Shown here in pieces: positions 56,537 through 63,756 of a DNA stretch of 64,000 bases (the first letter of the stretch is position 1; the number at the start of each line of letters is the position of its first letter). Origin of the DNA: Bacteroidota bacterium (lineage in GTDB: Bacteria > Bacteroidota > Bacteroidia > B-17B0 > Aurantibacillaceae). The position numbers were made by a program, and so were the translations under genes. The stretch is from positions 1 through 64,000 of the forward strand of contig JAJNDK010000001.1 in the NCBI GenBank assembly GCA_021156365.1. Reading direction: 5' to 3'. The notes under the pieces were generated by a model. It saw only the letters and a program-made list of their open reading frames with translations. It was not told the DNA's origin and made no database searches.

Positions 56537-56710
56537 AAAAAAAAATCAAAATCCCGGTCACCTGAATAATCACCGGGAGCAGAATAAATAATTCACTTAA
56601 AACGACTAAAAATCAAATAATTAGAAGGTTTTTGCGTTTTAGGTGTATCTTTTGGCCGGGATAGCTATTATAGATATAAAACGCTAACATTGCAAGCCCT
56701 AAATATTAAT

Positions 56711-57280
56711 ATGACGTTTTCTGCAAAGTATCACGCCACCACCGAACAGATCAGTTCAGAGTTTATGCAAATAGAAGCGGCTAAACGTGACGCGAATTAT
56801 TTTGGGCCCCTGTACGATAAATACTACAAACAGATTTTCGGATATATTTATCAGCGGATGGAAGACAAGGAGACGGCTTTTGATGTTACTTCCCAGGTTT
56901 TCCTGAAAGCGCTGACCAACCTGCACAAATACGAATTCAAAGGAGTGCCCTTCGGAAGTTGGTTATACCGGATCGCACACAGCGAAGTGATGCAGGTGTT
57001 CAGGGACAAAAAAGCACAACGCACCGTGAATGCTGATGTTTCGGACATCAAACACCTGTTCGAAGAGATCCAGGAGAGCTATTACGAAGATTTTATGCCG
57101 GCCTTATCAAAAGTGATGAAGGAGCTCCCTGAAGATGAGCTGCAACTGATCGAGATGCGCTTCTTCGAAAAAAGGGCCTTCAAAGAGATCGCAGAGATCA
57201 TGATGATGACAGAGAATAACGCAAAAGTGAAATTATACAGGATACTGGAGCGAATTAAAAAGATCCTGACAAAAAAATAA
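56711..57280 (+). CDS. ECF-type sigma-70 family RNA polymerase sigma factor
   Basis: A 189-aa sigma factor with regions 2 and 4. Region 2: FGPLYDKYYKQIFGYIYQRMEDKETAFDVTSQVFLKALTNL (read in pieces), FGSWLYRIAHSEVMQVFRDKKAQR; region 4: LPEDELQLIEMRFFEKRAFKEIAEIMMMTENNAKVKLYRILERIKK. A TTG-initiated frame starts at 56690; the ATG at 56711 (MTFSAKYHATTEQ) is preferred. The 588-aa membrane-anchored gene follows 11 nt downstream and is the likely anti-sigma partner; the genes up to 61666 are candidates for its regulon or operon. Confidence 0.9.
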   Translation: MTFSAKYHATTEQISSEFMQIEAAKRDANYFGPLYDKYYKQIFGYIYQRMEDKETAFDVTSQVFLKALTNLHKYEFKGVPFGSWLYRIAHSEVMQVFRDKKAQRTVNADVSDIKHLFEEIQESYYEDFMPALSKVMKELPEDELQLIEMRFFEKRAFKEIAEIMMMTENNAKVKLYRILERIKKILTKK

Positions 57281-57291
57281 AAACATCCAAA

Positions 57292-59058
57292 ATGGAACCA
57301 AAGTTTACCATCGACCGAAACAAGATCAGTGATGATGAAATTGAATCAAGAAAAGACTTTGATGCTTTAGTAAAGAAATTCAAAGAGCAAAGCATACAGG
57401 ATGCCAAATCCCAAAAGCGGTTCCCGAAGATCCGGAAGCTGGTCTATACCACTGTTATTGCCGGATTCTTAGTTGTATGTACCGTTACCGTTAATGAGAT
57501 CACCAAAAACAATGAGCATGATAAAACCGCTACAAGCATTGCCAATTCAAAAACAACTTTAACAGATAAAGAGAAAAGCAAATTCATCCAGCCGGTAAAA
57601 AAAGAAACGAAGTTAGCCTATTCCAAATACACCGTAAATGCGAATAAAGGCGGGGTGATCACTCACAAAACCACCTCACAGATCACCGTTCCGAAAGCAG
57701 CATTTGTGAAAAAAGACGGAAAAGAAGTTACAGGGAATGTAGAGATCCACTACCGTGAGATGCACGATGTGGTTGATCAACTGGTGAGCGGCATTCCGAT
57801 GCGTTATGACAGTGCCGGTGTGAAGCACGATTTCGAATCGGCCGGTATGATCGATATCAAAGGTTTCCACGAAGGTGAAGAAGTATTTATTAAACCAGGA
57901 AAAAACCTGGATATCAATATGGTTTCCCGTAAAGACGGAACCCGCTTCAACCTGTATTACCTCGATACGGTAGCTAAAAAATGGGATTACCTCGGAAAGG
58001 ATAAAGTAGTTTCCATTACGGAAACTGCCGAAAATAAAGCTTTGCATACGGAGCTGAAAAAAGACCAGACAAGCAAAGAAGTGAAGGAGATCGAAACCAC
58101 GATCCAAAAGTTAGCTGTGCAAAAAGGCGAGCTGATCGCCAGTACGGACAAAAAGATCATTACACTTCCGACACCCGTTGAACCCCAGAAACCGGCTGTT
58201 GCTAATAAAGCGCGTAAGCAATTCAAGTTAGATGTGAATTACGAGCAGTTTCCGGAGCTGAAAGCATTCAAAGGCTGCCTGTTTGAAGTAGGCGAGGAGA
58301 ACACACATTATACAAAAGAGTTCAGTACGATCACCTGGGCTGATGCATATATCACACCCGGCAGCGAAAAGGGTAAATATTATATCCTCAACCTGGAACT
58401 GGCGCATCGCAAAGAAAAACTGATCGTGTACCCCGTATTCACAGGTACTAAGTTAGAAGAAGTACAGGATGCCTATTCGAAAAAATTTACAGAATATGAA
58501 AAATCACTGACCGAGCGTAAAGCAAAGGAAAAGAAATACAAAGAAGACCTCGAAAAAGACCTGAAAAAGATAGAAGAAGAACAGAAGCTCTGGGTAGCGA
58601 AAATGGAAGCGGAGAAGAAGAAAATTTCTGAACAGGCAATCGTAGATCTGCAGGCAGCAAAAAACTCGGGTGAGCTCGATTTCAAAGTGCGCCGCTTGTT
58701 CCAGGTAAATAATTTCGGGGTATACAATACTGATTGTGCGCAGCGGATGGGCAATTCGACGATAACAAGCGCAGTTTTTGCAACAGATAAGAACTACCTG
58801 CGTCCGAACATGATCTACCTGATCGACAATAAGGCGAACATGATGATCACATATACTTCGGCGGACCTTGAAAATTTTAAATACGATGCAAAAAAAGAAT
58901 ACAGTATCCTGACCTCGGTGAACAATGAATTGTATCTCTGCAATGCCGAGTCTTTTCAAAACTCGAAAAAAGACGGTGATAAAACGATATTCAATTTCAC
59001 GCCTCTTGACCTGGAATTGTTCGATGCAGACGAGCTTCGGAAAAAATTAGGAGTTTAA
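57292..59058 (+). CDS. Single-pass membrane protein downstream of sigma factor, candidate anti-sigma
   Basis: A 588-aa protein. About 47 charged cytoplasmic residues (ISDDEIESRKDFDALVKKFKEQSI) precede one transmembrane helix (~50-67, VYTTVIAGFLVVCTVTVNEI). The exported part has a beta domain (~115-240: VPKAAFVKKDGKEVTGNVEIHYREMHD, GMIDIKGFHEGEEVFIKPGK), a second domain, a long coiled coil (~395-455) and a beta-rich tail. A short cytoplasmic arm plus exported sensor right after a sigma factor fits an anti-sigma role, but no zinc-binding anti-sigma motif (HxxxCxxC) is present. This is inference. Confidence 0.75.
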   Translation: MEPKFTIDRNKISDDEIESRKDFDALVKKFKEQSIQDAKSQKRFPKIRKLVYTTVIAGFLVVCTVTVNEITKNNEHDKTATSIANSKTTLTDKEKSKFIQPVKKETKLAYSKYTVNANKGGVITHKTTSQITVPKAAFVKKDGKEVTGNVEIHYREMHDVVDQLVSGIPMRYDSAGVKHDFESAGMIDIKGFHEGEEVFIKPGKNLDINMVSRKDGTRFNLYYLDTVAKKWDYLGKDKVVSITETAENKALHTELKKDQTSKEVKEIETTIQKLAVQKGELIASTDKKIITLPTPVEPQKPAVANKARKQFKLDVNYEQFPELKAFKGCLFEVGEENTHYTKEFSTITWADAYITPGSEKGKYYILNLELAHRKEKLIVYPVFTGTKLEEVQDAYSKKFTEYEKSLTERKAKEKKYKEDLEKDLKKIEEEQKLWVAKMEAEKKKISEQAIVDLQAAKNSGELDFKVRRLFQVNNFGVYNTDCAQRMGNSTITSAVFATDKNYLRPNMIYLIDNKANMMITYTSADLENFKYDAKKEYSILTSVNNELYLCNAESFQNSKKDGDKTIFNFTPLDLELFDADELRKKLGV

Positions 59059-59085
59059 TTTATAAACCGGGAATTGTTTTTGCTT

Positions 59086-59487
59086 ATGAAGTTGATCGCT
59101 ACTGTAGGCTTATTTCTTCTACTCCAGAGTTCGTTTGCGCAGATAGATGTCATAAAGGTAGTGAAGCAGGAAAACAATACTATTTTGTTTGCATCTGTTC
59201 TCGACCAGATCGTGAGTGCCAAAGCTACCAAGGAAGAGATCTCGAATTTCGGAAAGATCTATGTAAATGACTCCATCGTTGTTTCTTCCTATTGGTTCAC
59301 GTGTTTTGCCAACGGAGTACAGCACCAACGCCTCGAATCGGGCCCGCGTTTCAGTGGACAAACGATGATCGATCTCAATCATATCGGCAAAGGCGGTAAA
59401 GCATATTTTACAAACATTACCGGCTACAGCATTTATACACATATTATGTACAAAATATACAATCTCGAAATTCTGATAACCGACTAA
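59086..59487 (+). CDS. Small secreted protein resembling a GldM C-terminal domain
   Basis: A 133-aa protein. The frame opens with TTG at 59074, but ATG 59086 begins a normal signal peptide (MKLIATVGLFLLLQSSFAQ). The mature domain runs IVSSYWFTCFANGV then ESGPRFSGQTMIDLNHIGKGGKAYFTNI, similar in pattern to the beta-domains of GldM (F-x-x-...-G, then F-S-...-I-x-x-...-GGK-x-YF-x-NI) that form the periplasmic shaft of the T9SS. Similarity was judged by eye and is moderate. It may be an isolated GldM-like module. Confidence 0.55.
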   Translation: MKLIATVGLFLLLQSSFAQIDVIKVVKQENNTILFASVLDQIVSAKATKEEISNFGKIYVNDSIVVSSYWFTCFANGVQHQRLESGPRFSGQTMIDLNHIGKGGKAYFTNITGYSIYTHIMYKIYNLEILITD

Positions 59488-59496
59488 ATCAATTCG

Positions 59497-59560
59497 ATGA
59501 AAAAATGTGCCCATGGGCTCTGTTATACTGATAACAGCTTACAAAAGGAAAACAAAAACA
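59497..59560 (+). pseudogene. 5' relic of an FGE-fold (GldJ/GldK-like) gene
   Basis: This stretch repeats the start of the gene at 60055: ATGAAAAAA, then an identical GGCTCTGTTATACTGATAAC-AGC run, then (T)TACAAAAGGAAAA. Small deletions put it out of frame, and after ~64 nt the similarity ends. The shifted frame runs 27 codons to a TGA (59578-59580) that overlaps the ATG of the next gene, so it might still couple translation. Confidence 0.7.
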
Positions 59561-59576
59561 TACTGATATTGAATGC

Positions 59577-60008
59577 ATGAATTGGTTAGTATTACTTCTA
59601 TTGGCACCACTGTATCTTAAATCCCAGGGAGTATCCGGGAGAGATTTCACCTTAACCGGGAAATGGCAATTTATATACAGGGATACTACTTTAAGCAGTA
59701 AGAAAAAGGAAATAAAGTGCGATGTTTCAAATACCTGTGAAATAATTGAATTTACTTCAGATAAAAAATACGGAAGATCATATGGGGCTGTTTTGCAGGA
59801 ATCTGGTACCTGGCGTTTTAAAAACGATTCACTCATTAGGGATGATCGGATAACGGAAGCATCTTTTCCCGGGAAATATAAAATGGGCCCATTAACGTAT
59901 AAGGTTGAACGTTTGCTCAAGGGACAATTGGTCTTTTCGTCTTATGAAACTGGAAAAAAGGTTAAAGGAGTGCCAAAAGCGTATTTGTTTTATAAGAAAC
60001 TGGAATAA
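59577..60008 (+). CDS. Secreted lipocalin-like protein
   Basis: A 143-aa protein with a signal peptide (MNWLVLLLLAPLYLKSQ). The mature sequence has lipocalin-like order: LTGKWQFIYRD, CDVSNTCEIIEFTSDKKYGRS, ESGTWRFKNDSLIRDD, YKVERLLKGQLVFSS, ending GVPKAYLFYKKLE. Two Cys (CDVSNTC) may form a disulphide. It lies between the FGE relic and the intact FGE-fold genes, so it was probably inserted into that array. Ligand unknown. Confidence 0.65.
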   Translation: MNWLVLLLLAPLYLKSQGVSGRDFTLTGKWQFIYRDTTLSSKKKEIKCDVSNTCEIIEFTSDKKYGRSYGAVLQESGTWRFKNDSLIRDDRITEASFPGKYKMGPLTYKVERLLKGQLVFSSYETGKKVKGVPKAYLFYKKLE

Positions 60009-60054
60009 GTAAATGTATTATCAAAATTGCATATTATTTTAAAATTAAGAAACT

Positions 60055-60852
60055 ATGAAAAAAATAATGATACTCATCGGCTCTGTTATACTGATAACAG
60101 CCTTTACAAAAGGAAAAGAAAAAATGTTCCTTCCACCCGGAACAGTGCAGATCAATGATTCCCTGTTTGCAGATGAAACAGAGATATCGAATTTCTCCTG
60201 GAGGGAATTTGTTGACTACAACAAACAGCAATTCGGCAGCAGCTCTGTAGAGTATATTTCTTCTCTGCCCGATACGCTCGTTTGGAGAGCCCCGCTTTCA
60301 TACAATGAGCCTTATGTGCTGTATTATTATTCGCATCCTGCCTATAAGGACTATCCTGTGGTTGGAATAAGCTATGAGCAGGCAGTGCATTTCTGCAGGT
60401 GGAGAACGGAGCGGGTGCACGCTTTCCTGGAAATAAAAGAAGGAAAACGAAAAGCGGGAGATCTGAATGAGGCGTATACAGGCAAATTAAAATTCGAATA
60501 CCGTTTACCAACGAAGCAGGAATGGGAAGCATTGGCTTTACCAGGTTTGGATGCAAAAAATAAAAAAGAGCAAAAGGGACAGGTGAAGTATAATATTATA
60601 AATACATCTTCTGTCGCTTCGTCAACCTCTGATAATGCCGATGTCACAGCCCCTGTTTATTCCTACTGGCCAAATAAGCTGGGAGTTTATAATGTGATCG
60701 GAAATGTAAGTGAACTGGTAGCCGAGAAAGGAATTGCCAAAGGCGGAAGCTGGAAGACCCTGAAGGAAAATCTGGATATATGGAAAGACGAAGCCTGTAC
60801 TGAACCTAATTCTTACACAGGCTTCAGATGTGTTTGTGTGGTAAAGAAATAA
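60055..60852 (+). CDS. FGE-sulfatase-fold protein, GldJ/GldK-like (copy 1)
   Basis: A 265-aa exported protein with an N-terminal hydrophobic segment (MKKIMILIGSVILITAFT). The formylglycine-generating-enzyme fold is clear: FLPPGTVQINDSLFADETEISNFSWREFVDY (read in pieces), YPVVGISYEQAVHFCRWRTERV, YRLPTKQEWEALAL, KLGVYNVIGNVSELVAEKGIAKGGSW, and TGFRCVCV. GldK and GldJ of the T9SS share this fold without FGE activity. In FGE two active-site Cys lie near the end; here only the terminal C-x-C is present, so it is probably structural. Copy 2 follows 8 nt downstream. Confidence 0.85.
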   Translation: MKKIMILIGSVILITAFTKGKEKMFLPPGTVQINDSLFADETEISNFSWREFVDYNKQQFGSSSVEYISSLPDTLVWRAPLSYNEPYVLYYYSHPAYKDYPVVGISYEQAVHFCRWRTERVHAFLEIKEGKRKAGDLNEAYTGKLKFEYRLPTKQEWEALALPGLDAKNKKEQKGQVKYNIINTSSVASSTSDNADVTAPVYSYWPNKLGVYNVIGNVSELVAEKGIAKGGSWKTLKENLDIWKDEACTEPNSYTGFRCVCVVKK

Positions 60853-60859
60853 TCAGCAC

Positions 60860-61666
60860 ATGTCTTCCGGAAAAATAACAGGGCTTTTGTTTGTTCTTGT
60901 GTTGATCACTGCTTTCAACACGAAAAAAAAGAAAGCTTTCCTTCCTCCCGGAACCGTTCAGATCAATGACACCTTATTTGCCGATGAATGCGAGATCAGC
61001 AATCTTGCCTGGCGGGAATACGTTGAATATAACAACAGGATATTCGGAAAAGGATCCATAGAGTATACTTCTTCCTTACCTGACACGCTCGTATGGCGAC
61101 ATAAACTGGCTTTTTGCGAACCTTACGTTGAATATTATTTCAGGCACCCTGCTTACAGCGGATATCCGGTAGTGGGACTTACTTACGAGCAGGCCGTTCA
61201 GTATTGCAAATGGAGAACAGAGCGTGTACATGTCTGGATGGAAATTCAATCCGGCAAACGTTGCTATGAAAAGATTGCAGAGCCCTACACGGGAGAAATC
61301 ATACTGGAGTATCGTTTGCCAACCCGGCAGGAGTGGGAAGCACTGGCCCTCATTGGTACTGACCAAAAGCTAAAAGAAAACTACGTAAAGAAGAACAGCT
61401 CGTTTTTTAACTTTATGGATCTTAGCCCTTCTTTTTCTAAAAACGATTCGGGAGATGAAATGGATCCGGTAAAGTCTTATCTGCCGAACAAGTTGGGATT
61501 GTATGATTTATTCGGCAATGCTGCTGAAATGATCTCGGAAAAAGGCATCTCCAAAGGAGGTAGCTGGAAGGATGATAAGGACTATGCAGGAGTTTGGAAA
61601 GATGGTAGTTATTCAGCACCCGATTCCCAAACCGGCTTCCGTTGTGTTTGTGTTAAGAAGAAGTAA
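60860..61666 (+). CDS. FGE-sulfatase-fold protein, GldJ/GldK-like (copy 2)
   Basis: A 268-aa paralogue of copy 1: FLPPGTVQINDTLFADECEISN, YPVVGLTYEQAVQYCKWRTERV, YRLPTRQEWEALALIG, KLGLYDLFGNAAEMISEKGISKGGSW, TGFRCVCVKKK. It differs in the N-terminal segment (MSSGKITGLLFVLVLITAFN) and around residues 185-200. Together with the relic at 59497 it indicates at least three tandem copies existed. The gene starts 8 nt after copy 1's stop codon, so both are co-translated. Confidence 0.85.
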   Translation: MSSGKITGLLFVLVLITAFNTKKKKAFLPPGTVQINDTLFADECEISNLAWREYVEYNNRIFGKGSIEYTSSLPDTLVWRHKLAFCEPYVEYYFRHPAYSGYPVVGLTYEQAVQYCKWRTERVHVWMEIQSGKRCYEKIAEPYTGEIILEYRLPTRQEWEALALIGTDQKLKENYVKKNSSFFNFMDLSPSFSKNDSGDEMDPVKSYLPNKLGLYDLFGNAAEMISEKGISKGGSWKDDKDYAGVWKDGSYSAPDSQTGFRCVCVKKK

Positions 61667-61800: not shown

Positions 61801-63756
61801 ATGGATAGGAATTCACTTATTGGTATTGGGATTATAGGAGCAATTTTGATCGGCTGGATGTATTTTAGCGGGCCGAACAAAGAAGAGCTGGCAGCACAAA
61901 AACGGATGATAGATTCTATTGCGATGGCAGATTCGCTGAAGGCAGTAGAAACAGCGAAACAAATAGCGGAAGCCAAAGCCATAGCAGATACGGCAAAAAT
62001 AAGTACGGATACTTCAAAAACAGCTGTAACAAGTGTAACAGCAGTTCCGGCTAATTCAGATTCACTCAAGGCAGTTCAGGCAGCGAAGGTGTTGAATGAT
62101 ACGTATCGTGATTTTGCTGCTTCTTCAAAAGGAAGCGACACCCTGTATAGCATCGAGAACAACCTGATCAAAGCGATCGTTTCTTCTAAAGGTGGAAAGG
62201 TTGTTTCCGTTGAATTAAAAGAATACAACCGCCCGAACGAACCAAACCCATTGGTTTTATTCAATGGGGATAGCCTTACGCAGTCATTGGAGATCAATGC
62301 CTACAACAGTATGGCTATTTCTACCGACAGCCTTTATTTTGTGCCGGAAGTCCAGGAACCAAAAGCAGGTCCGGGTACCAAAGCTGCCCAGCTGACCATG
62401 CGTATGAAGACCAGTAACCCGGCCTCTTATATTGATTTTGTATACAAGCTGAAACAGGATTCCTACACGCTCGATTACGATGTGGTTTTCTCCAACATGC
62501 AGGGGATCGTAAGCTCCAATCGGAACGACATCACGATGAACTGGGGCATGCAGTTGCCAACACAGGAATTGCACATCGAAAAGGAAAAACAAACCTCGGG
62601 GATCTTTTATCAAACAATAGAACCGAACGGAGAAGCGGAAGTAGACAACATGAGCCTTGTGAGCAGCGAGGAAAAATCGATCCCGGAGTCTGAACTGAAA
62701 TGGGTGGCTTTCAAACAGCAGTTCTTTTCGTCGGTGCTGATCGCAAAAACAAAATTCATCAAAGGTTCTCTTTTCAATGTATATGTGGACCAAACCAATT
62801 CGGATGTTGTAAAATCAGATAAGGCTACACTTGGATTCATGTACGAAGGAAAACCTTCCGAAACATTCAGCATGCAGTTCTTCTACGGTCCGAATCAGTA
62901 TCACGTACTGAAAGACCAGAACCTGGATCTGGAGCAAATGATCCCGATGGGCTGGTCGGTATTCAAATACCTGAACAAATGGTTGGTGGTACCTATTTTC
63001 AATGCATTCAAAGACTCATCCATGAGCATGGGTTGGGTGATCCTTATCCTGACCCTCATCATCAAAATACTCCTATTACCGATCGCATATAAAACCTACC
63101 TGTCTTCAGCTAAAATGCGTTTGCTGAAACCGGAGATCGATGCGATCAAAGCAAAACACGGTACAGACACCATGAAGGTGAACCAGGAAAACATGGCCTT
63201 GTATAAAAAGGCCGGGGCCAGTCCGCTTTCCGGTTGTATTCCGGCTTTGCTGCAATTACCGATCCTCATCGCCCTGCTGAATTTCTTCCCTGCTTCTTTC
63301 GAGCTGCGTCAGAAAGAATTCCTGTGGGCAACCGATCTTTCCACTTATGACTCGGTGTGGGATTTCGGTGTGGTACCTGTGATCAATACTATTTACGGTG
63401 ATCACATGAGCTTGTTCGCATTGCTCATGTTCGTGTCCACGATGGTGTATACCTGGATGAACCAGAAGATGATGCCAATGAACAACCAGCAGATGCCGGG
63501 TATGCAGGTAATGATGTACCTGATGCCAGTGATCTTCCTGAGCTTCATGAACAGTTATTCGGCCGGCTTGAGCTGGTACTATTTCCTTGCCAACATGATC
63601 ACCTTCCTGCAAACCTTCCTGTTCCGTAAGTTAGTGAGCGACGATAAGCTGCGTGCGAAGATCAATGATAATATGAAAAAGCCTATTAAAAAATCGGGCT
63701 TCCAACAACGTTTGGAGCAGATGCAAAAACAACAGGCTGCGGCAAAAAGAAAGTAA
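61801..63756 (+). CDS. yidC: Membrane protein insertase YidC
   Basis: A 651-aa essential insertase that folds proteins into the inner membrane alone or with SecYEG. TM1 (SLIGIGIIGAILIGWMYFS) and a large periplasmic beta-supersandwich (~90-370, NNLIKAIVSSKGGKVVSVELKEYNRP, read in pieces) come first. The conserved 60-kDa core follows (~385-625): YKTYLSSAKMRLLKPEIDAIKAKHG, KKAGASPLSGCIPALLQLPILIALLNFFP (read in pieces), and NMITFLQTFLFRKLV. The basic tail (KKPIKKSGFQQRLEQMQKQQ) contacts ribosomes. Length is typical of Bacteroidota YidC. Confidence 0.97.
   Translation: MDRNSLIGIGIIGAILIGWMYFSGPNKEELAAQKRMIDSIAMADSLKAVETAKQIAEAKAIADTAKISTDTSKTAVTSVTAVPANSDSLKAVQAAKVLNDTYRDFAASSKGSDTLYSIENNLIKAIVSSKGGKVVSVELKEYNRPNEPNPLVLFNGDSLTQSLEINAYNSMAISTDSLYFVPEVQEPKAGPGTKAAQLTMRMKTSNPASYIDFVYKLKQDSYTLDYDVVFSNMQGIVSSNRNDITMNWGMQLPTQELHIEKEKQTSGIFYQTIEPNGEAEVDNMSLVSSEEKSIPESELKWVAFKQQFFSSVLIAKTKFIKGSLFNVYVDQTNSDVVKSDKATLGFMYEGKPSETFSMQFFYGPNQYHVLKDQNLDLEQMIPMGWSVFKYLNKWLVVPIFNAFKDSSMSMGWVILILTLIIKILLLPIAYKTYLSSAKMRLLKPEIDAIKAKHGTDTMKVNQENMALYKKAGASPLSGCIPALLQLPILIALLNFFPASFELRQKEFLWATDLSTYDSVWDFGVVPVINTIYGDHMSLFALLMFVSTMVYTWMNQKMMPMNNQQMPGMQVMMYLMPVIFLSFMNSYSAGLSWYYFLANMITFLQTFLFRKLVSDDKLRAKINDNMKKPIKKSGFQQRLEQMQKQQAAAKRK

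Follow-up and report, generated by a model that had tools for sequence, protein, structure and literature searches.

A putative ECF sigma factor/anti-sigma operon with GldM- and GldJ/GldK-like partner proteins in Aurantibacillaceae and a promoter type shared with type IX secretion genes

The locus described here lies in a 64,000-nucleotide stretch of DNA (the window) from a bacterium of the family Aurantibacillaceae, phylum Bacteroidota (GenBank assembly GCA_021156365.1, contig JAJNDK010000001.1, positions 1 to 64,000), which belongs to contig C7 of a 5.3-Mb assembly of 23 contigs. It encodes an extracytoplasmic function (ECF) sigma factor, a 588-aa membrane protein that is a putative anti-sigma factor, and small secreted proteins resembling parts of the type IX secretion system (T9SS) and the gliding machinery (Table 1). 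On the plus strand, the sigma gene is followed by the genes for the 588-aa protein, a 133-aa protein (137 aa in the longer call), a 143-aa protein and two proteins with the formylglycine-generating enzyme (FGE) fold. An earlier note on this DNA, made from the sequence alone, had placed these genes correctly and counted six behind the sigma gene; there are five, and six only when the sigma gene is included. Its description of the sigma, 588-aa, GldM-like and FGE genes and of an FGE relic agreed with the coordinates, Pfam, a hidden Markov model (HMM) of GldM domain D4 and blastn. The relic lies between the 133-aa and 143-aa genes and was aligned over 62 columns with the beginning of the FGE gene that starts at 60055 (87% identity, blastn E-value 1.6e-16). 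The promoter-like element upstream of the sigma gene reads GTATCTTTTGGCCGGGATAGCTATTATA, at 56645. The operon is followed by yidC (named from its place and sequence) at 61801. Full-size gldK, gldL, gldM and gldN were found together with a porP-family gene on contig C22 of the same genome, gldJ on C8 and a second gldM on C13, all above the NCBIfam cut-offs; therefore, the window locus is not the T9SS core.

Table 1. Features of the sigma factor locus in the window (TM, transmembrane; AF2, AlphaFold2).
Feature	Position	Strand	Basis
Promoter-like element GTATCT-N17-TTATA, upstream of sigma gene	56645..56672	+	Motif analysis, weight-matrix score 20.2
ECF sigma factor, 189 aa (alternative start TTG 56690)	56711..57280	+	Pfam r2 and r4_2
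588-aa single-TM protein, putative anti-sigma factor	57292..59058	+	No Pfam/NCBIfam family; sigma adjacency; AF2 model
Codons 1-46 of 588-aa gene, N-terminal segment accompanying adjacent sigma gene	57292..57429	+	HMM co-occurrence
Codons 49-70 of 588-aa gene, hydrophobic helix (low model confidence)	57436..57501	+	AF2 model
Codons 110-241 of 588-aa gene, conserved periplasmic beta domain	57619..58014	+	AF2 model
133-aa secreted protein, GldM-D4-like domain (ATG 59086; 137 aa in longer call)	59086..59487	+	D4 HMM, hhalign
Relic: start of FGE gene	59500..59558	+	blastn against FGE gene at 60055
143-aa secreted protein, at most weakly lipocalin-like; convincing matches in own genome only	59577..60008	+	Pfam, genome scan
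FGE-fold protein, GldJ/GldK-like, without lipobox Cys	60055..60852	+	Pfam, NCBIfam, PDB match
Second FGE-fold protein, 57% identical to first	60860..61666	+	Pfam, NCBIfam

Both region 2 and region 4 were present in the sigma factor (Pfam Sigma70_r2, 1e-11; r4_2, 2e-8). For the 588-aa protein, searches of Pfam and NCBIfam up to an E-value of 1 gave no family apart from one NCBIfam match at 0.38, and no anti-sigma family, class I included. For 25 members of the 588-aa protein family, the listing of Pfam matches up to an E-value of 0.5 comprised 22 families, none of them an anti-sigma family. In the AlphaFold2 model (65 sequences; mean predicted local distance difference test (pLDDT) 83.1, predicted template modelling score (pTM) 0.52), two helices within residues 14-43 (pLDDT about 70) are followed by the hydrophobic helix and the beta domain given in Table 1. 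Helices at 246-290 come next, then a second domain, a long helix spanning 385-458 and, at the C-terminus, another beta domain. Comparison of the model with the PDB by Foldseek gave no fold match (best E-value 0.33).

The pairing of sigma factor and membrane protein was conserved. A scan of named genomes found 432 loci, of which the best 80 were kept; all of these were titled metagenome-assembled genomes, and nearly all were named Bacteroidota or a Bacteroidota genus. Among these 80, the sigma gene was directly upstream of the 588-family gene in 74 of the 75 loci with upstream sequence, L194 being the exception. In a wider census of 165 distinct 588-family members of at least 300 aa, a sigma gene was directly upstream of 128; seven members started at a contig end, 29 had no sigma gene, and one had a sigma fragment two genes upstream. 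When an HMM built from residues 1-46 of alignment A2 was run on loci not in that alignment, the N-terminal segment was detected in 79 of 82 members beside a sigma gene and in 3 of 30 members without one (Fisher 2e-19, a value that is too small because the loci are related and not independent). The 27 sigma-less members lacking the segment included L286, the member with the distant sigma fragment. In 20 of the 30 sigma-less members, the strongest hydrophobic stretch begins within the first 17 residues, so that these proteins start with a signal or anchor. Gained and lost together with the sigma gene, the segment behaves as expected of a sigma-binding domain. It looks like a minimal anti-sigma domain, through which the 588-aa protein may bind the sigma factor.

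A comparable layout is found in CnrYXH, in which a short cytoplasmic sigma-binding segment is joined to one TM helix and a periplasmic sensor is encoded beside it. Anti-sigma domains shorter than 50 aa may be class II, according to the available text of PMC7406223. With 46 residues and one TM helix, the N-terminal part of the 588-aa protein falls in this suspected class II size range; it differs from the CnrYXH type in its large unique periplasmic domain and in having secretion-system mimics rather than a metal sensor beside it, and the likeness seen is one of layout.

The behaviour of the segment also bears on whether the module acts on the T9SS directly, as a secretion accessory, which the earlier note had offered as an option. 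The 588-aa periplasmic domain and its partners would then act on the motor, and the sigma factor would merely co-express them. Sigma-less members without the segment are present beside GldM-like genes at L265, L266, L269, L275, L306 and L309, and therefore the periplasmic pair can exist without signalling. Such a complex is nevertheless very improbable, as the segment goes with the sigma gene, which is directly upstream in the 128 members counted above; a regulatory role is favoured over an accessory one.

The earlier note had likened the small secreted protein to the C-terminal domain of GldM. No Pfam GldM match was obtained for the 133-aa protein up to an E-value of 1, and a non-iterated HMM of 29 full-length GldM proteins gave 0.017. 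With an iterated D4 HMM from which both it and its homologue in genome G001 were held out, the window protein was detected at 5e-5 and the homologue at 8e-4, the best of 4138 decoys being at 0.099. By hhalign, the same pair was aligned with a D4 set at an E-value of 9e-10 and a probability of 96.5, some signal-peptide columns being included, and with a D3-D4 set at 6e-4 and a probability of only 29. The resemblance is real, though weak for the window protein by itself. Third genes at related loci gave clearer matches: a profile of 21 GldM-like partners was matched over D3-D4 to the PorM structures 6ey5, 6ey6 and 7cmg (3e-13 to 6e-13) and to a GldM structure (7e-4). The partners thus share D4 (window) or D3-D4 (other loci) with GldM/PorM and differ from the full-length proteins in being truncated and secreted, without D1-D2 or the TM helix. 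Downstream of a sigma/588-type pair, two to four GldM-D4-like secreted genes were found at L256, L257, L258, L260 and L278 (six members at five loci).

The two FGE-fold proteins of the window were matched to PF03781 (5e-23 and 5e-20) and to the NCBIfam GldK and GldJ models (4e-37 to 1e-27), all of the latter below the cut-offs (best scores 128 and 120 bits against cut-offs of 350 and 458). Against the PDB, the first FGE protein retrieved PorK first (7e-20), and FGE enzymes followed at 7e-7 or worse. Within its own genome, it was closer to GldJ (39% identity over 250 columns) than to GldK (30% over 238), and it lacks the long GldJ insert. The proposed GldK/GldJ likeness was thus borne out, PorK preceding any FGE enzyme, with GldJ the nearer relative in the same genome. 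What is shared is the FGE domain; the window proteins are much shorter than GldK/PorK and GldJ, and no Cys was found in the first 43 residues, so that there is no lipobox. The catalytic Cys pair of formylglycine-generating enzymes, placed after the GGS motif, was absent after GGSW from both window copies. A further divergent FGE-domain protein is encoded a few genes beyond yidC on the same contig, past the end of the window (L069:10430-11579). For the 143-aa protein, the best label was GH43_C at an E-value of 0.015, below the cut-off; the description as lipocalin-like is doubtful and the weakest of the gene labels in the earlier note.

The partner slot, i.e., the next one or two genes on the same strand, was compared among the 128 sigma-adjacent loci. 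An FGE gene was present in 35 and a GldM-like gene in 24, the window among the latter. Short GldM-like open reading frames (ORFs) accounted for 42 of 254 within three genes downstream and 4 of 848 elsewhere in the same loci, and FGE ORFs for 40 of 254 and 2 of 848, respectively, the loci being related. These counts bear on the suggestion, also made in the earlier note, of an unrelated stress operon with superficial fold similarity, in which unrelated secreted proteins would stand behind a sigma gene by chance. That the Pfam GldM models miss the small window protein would fit such a view, but it is already contradicted by the held-out D4 match, by the PDB structures that the partner profile and the FGE protein match, and by the enrichment of both partner types, and it is scarcely credible.

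Other occupants of the slot were also noted. In one clade, it was taken by a secreted family of about 205 aa with a GTIKxxK start (L184:7827-8441 and about 20 relatives; AlphaFold2 pLDDT 80.8). For this third-gene family, found at loci such as L167-L196, a TonB identity suspected by eye was dropped: Pfam gave only two single-member matches (0.02-0.03), the best match among PDB sequences was an unrelated receptor (0.069), hhalign against the GldM-like set aligned the start region only, and Foldseek of the AlphaFold2 model gave no usable match in the PDB (best 0.22).

Relatives of the 588-aa protein were found in 37 of 60 near genomes and in 141 of 395 genomes of the class. In 37 of the 80 named loci, an FGE gene was within two genes of the 588-aa gene, next to it in 35 and one gene further in 2 (fragments counted). 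Outside this strain, the gene order was thus kept in many genomes for the sigma, 588-aa and FGE genes and not for the remaining two: the 137-aa gene was found in 2 of 87 family genomes, besides one match with stops (0.009), and the 143-aa gene in 1 of 87, besides two matches (0.002 and 0.009). These two genes are local additions outside the conserved order. Congener G002 has one FGE copy, compared with two in the window.

FGE domains were also encoded behind sigma-like genes elsewhere in the same genome. On C1 (L073:8519-10512; C1:273519-275512), a sigma-like gene (regions 2 and 4 at 0.002 and 0.005) overlaps a gene whose 477-aa product has a cytosolic N-terminus, a TM helix at 64 and an FGE domain (7e-14), an apparent anti-sigma/FGE fusion judging from this arrangement. 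On the minus strand of C16 (L072:9304-12795), a weakly 588-like gene (family HMM, 2e-13), a sigma region-4 gene (4e-5) and the gene for a 538-aa protein with a cytosolic N-terminus, a TM helix at 70 and an FGE domain are consecutive. FGE domains therefore recur in this organism as periplasmic parts of sigma-linked membrane proteins.

A motif derived from the sigma upstream regions, GTA[AT]C[CT]-N15-18-TTATA, was present in 84 of 126 of them and in 0.4% of shuffles. In 20 genomes carrying the 588-aa family, mostly picked from clades whose sigma promoter has the GTATCTTTT form, GTATCTTTTN13-14TTATA gave 116 matches compared with 6 for the reversed pattern. Among 20 genomes lacking the family, the corresponding counts were 9 and 6; 19 of these genomes had no 588 relative at an E-value of 1e-5, and G042 had one at 1.3e-7. 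For 20 genomes of the window's family, GTAACYTTTN13-14TTATA gave 66 matches and the control 16. At L078, L080, L087, L094, L098 and other loci, the sigma promoter element occurs twice in tandem, at a spacing of about 54 bp. On C19 of the window's genome, the motif stands before a 240-aa gene and a sigma-less 588-family lipoprotein (L074:7299-9527), and the same motif is upstream of a 588-family gene on C6 of G002.

Beyond what the earlier note had described, the promoter motif of the operon was also found upstream of gldJ and, depending on the genome, of gldK, gldM or gldN. For the GTATCTTTT motif, the downstream gene was examined at 68 distinct sites of the 116. T9SS genes were behind nine, which is a lower bound over all 116 matches and not a rate because 5 of the 40 regions (G002 twice, G349, G149 and G429) were chosen for their location at known T9SS genes. 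These genes were gldM (35 nt) and a second gldM (38 nt) in G002; gldJ in G429 and G149 (35 and 36 nt), that of G429 being above the GldJ cut-off; gldN in G390 and a GldN-domain protein in G149 (PF19841, 4e-68 and 3e-36); and, in G349, G149 and G429, an arginase-family gene followed by porP-, gldK- and gldL-like genes. A sigma gene of the window type was behind 8 sites, a sigma-less 588-family gene behind 2, a stand-alone FGE protein behind 3, and a D4-like protein behind 1 (C10 of the window's genome). The site at L394 precedes the gene for an OmpA/PD40 protein that resembles CHU_0125 and PorE but scores below both cut-offs, and proteins with a like start were found at two other sites. Seven sites had no gene behind them, and the remainder preceded various secreted, outer-membrane or unknown genes. 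Two of the 68 sites precede genes for 860-870-aa proteins with a 588-like stretch (L386:391-2973 and L389:313-2922), the former with leucine-rich repeats and followed by a porP-like gene. A lipoprotein of about 100 aa, similar by eye, was behind the motif in five genomes (L347, L390, L395, L401 and L409).

Among the 66 GTAACYTTT matches in the window's family, 15 were at gldJ, 4 at gldK, 3 at gldM and 4 at 588-family operons, two of these being the sigma pair. The gldJ sites, present in 15 of the 20 genomes, were 281-288 nt before the matched gldJ segment, i.e., tens of nucleotides before the gldJ start.

With a weight matrix trained on the sigma promoters, gldJ scored 20.4-23.9 in all 8 carriers of the 588-aa family and at most 13.6 in all 4 other genomes (p 0.004); L056, L058, L059 and L070:GldJ, which are FGE proteins and not gldJ, were left out. 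For gldK, scores were 9.0-23.5 in 13 carriers and -0.9 to 13.5 in 8 non-carriers (p 0.003), leaving out L412 (a fragment) and L373-L375 (gldK inside an operon) and counting G011, which has a sigma-less 588 relative, as a non-carrier. Among 827 background genes, 4 scored at least 20 and 10 at least 12. In the window's genome, the sigma gene scored 20.2, gldJ 21.5 and the second gldM 24.3, and no site was found before the 588-aa, 143-aa, first FGE or yidC genes. Thus, an operon with small GldJ/K and GldM copies carries the same promoter type as full-size gldJ and a gldM.

The most serious rival to control by the window sigma factor is that another, SigP-like ECF factor reads the motif, the operon, gldJ and other T9SS genes being its targets and the sigma factor of the operon having a different regulon. 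In Porphyromonas gingivalis, genes for T9SS components are driven by the ECF sigma factor SigP, the T9SS cargo PorA providing a signal; PorX, acting after PorY, reportedly activates SigP (available text of PMC7712824). In Flavobacterium psychrophilum, the SM6 regulon has ECF-type promoters before gldN, porU and an ECF/anti-sigma pair, the responsible sigma factor being left undetermined in the available text of PMC9723704. ECF control of T9SS genes therefore exists without the sigma/588 pair, as far as these two sources show. Further, in family genomes without the pair (L422-L429), gldK is preceded by related but different boxes (GAAACC..GCGTTAAAG, GTAACA..GCATTATATT), which are perhaps read by another ECF factor. 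The presence and absence of the motif across genomes nevertheless speaks against this rival: the motif precedes the sigma gene itself at two-thirds of the loci, is enriched only in genomes with the pair, and gives site scores at gldJ and gldK that differ between carriers and non-carriers. Another reading factor is thus considered unlikely, if worth keeping in mind.

Taken together, the locus is reasonably likely to be an ECF sigma/membrane anti-sigma switch that governs its own operon and T9SS/gliding genes, with mimics of T9SS parts as periplasmic partners. The regulon would probably include gldJ in many genomes and, varying from one genome to another, gldK, gldM or gldN. The comparisons support the sigma-membrane protein pairing, the sigma-linked N-terminus, the T9SS-derived partners and the shared promoter, and we infer sigma binding, docking of the mimics, the direction of the signal and sensing. 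The suggestion in the earlier note, an envelope sensor made of reused T9SS parts and governed by a sigma/anti-sigma pair of its own, is supported at the level of sequence comparison.

The 588-aa protein may keep the sigma factor at the inner membrane through its short N-terminus, and its large periplasmic part may work with small secreted T9SS copies (GldM D4 and the GldJ/GldK FGE domain). The mimics or their full-size counterparts would dock on this periplasmic part, and the state of the GldM-GldJ/K machine would set whether the sigma factor is held or freed. Shortage or malfunction of the machine would free it, raising T9SS components and its own operon in a feedback loop on T9SS supply. More tentatively, and with somewhat less than even confidence, a homeostatic circuit can be proposed, in which a new anti-sigma family gauges the completeness or load of the T9SS/gliding motor by binding secreted decoys of the motor tip (GldM D4) and of its ring or track lipoproteins (the GldK/GldJ FGE domain), and frees a sigma factor that raises production of the real parts.

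The broader target set leads to another explanation, namely a general envelope-stress sigma/anti-sigma pair with the T9SS genes as a side branch and the FGE- and GldM-like partners as structural proteins, not sensors. Most examined sites precede other genes, mostly secreted or outer-membrane ones (OmpA, WG repeats, choice-of-anchor, unknown families), and 31 of the 128 sigma-adjacent loci have other third genes. However, both frequent recognisable partner types derive from T9SS components, no target recurs as regularly in the window's family as gldJ, and genes following sigma-like genes encode FGE domains joined to membrane anchors; a general stress role is accordingly rated as distinctly unlikely.

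Several observations weigh against the proposed T9SS-linked switch, in addition to the relatedness of the loci mentioned above. Besides the 31 loci with other third genes, 21 have a secreted family of unknown fold, 13 have no gene on the strand and 4 reach the contig end, and therefore a mimic is not obligatory. Co-occurrence with the T9SS has no discriminating power, since GldL was found in 372 of the 395 class genomes; of the 141 carriers, four had no GldL match (G137, G264, G366 and G436, which are 72, 56, 77 and 59% complete), G436 being counted here because it was missing among the genomes listed with a match. For the looser motif GTAACYN16-17TTATAA, five family genomes showed no genome-wide enrichment (62 matches compared with 67 in the control), although four of the five have a match upstream of gldK. 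In the window's genome, the main gldM scored 15.3 and gldK 16.0 or 8.8 depending on the start taken. Most gldM upstream regions are without a good site, with at least 15 reached in 5 of 33 distinct ones, and most gldN upstream regions likewise. The window sigma factor is the candidate reader of the motif.

Compared with PorXY-SigP, the window's family likewise has T9SS genes sharing the promoter type of the sigma factor; the difference is that the window sigma gene adjoins that of a single-TM protein whose N-terminus is sigma-linked and whose periplasmic partners are T9SS-like. For SM6, the available text of PMC9723704 mentions no partner resembling GldM or GldJ/K. In the available text of the openly accessible journal papers searched, no account was found of a GldM- or GldJ/K-like protein next to an anti-sigma factor.

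According to the available text of PMC7406223, a class I anti-sigma factor was found next to only 6% of the ECF factors of Bacteroidetes. PorXY-SigP is the studied case of how Bacteroidota match T9SS supply to need. The locus yields a candidate anti-sigma family, present in more than a third of the class genomes, together with a promoter sequence, a candidate regulon and named partner proteins. If the proposed reading is true, it would also account for some of the orphan GldM-D4 proteins and small GldJ/K-like proteins in these genomes, and the secretion machine would be sensed through molecular copies of its own parts.

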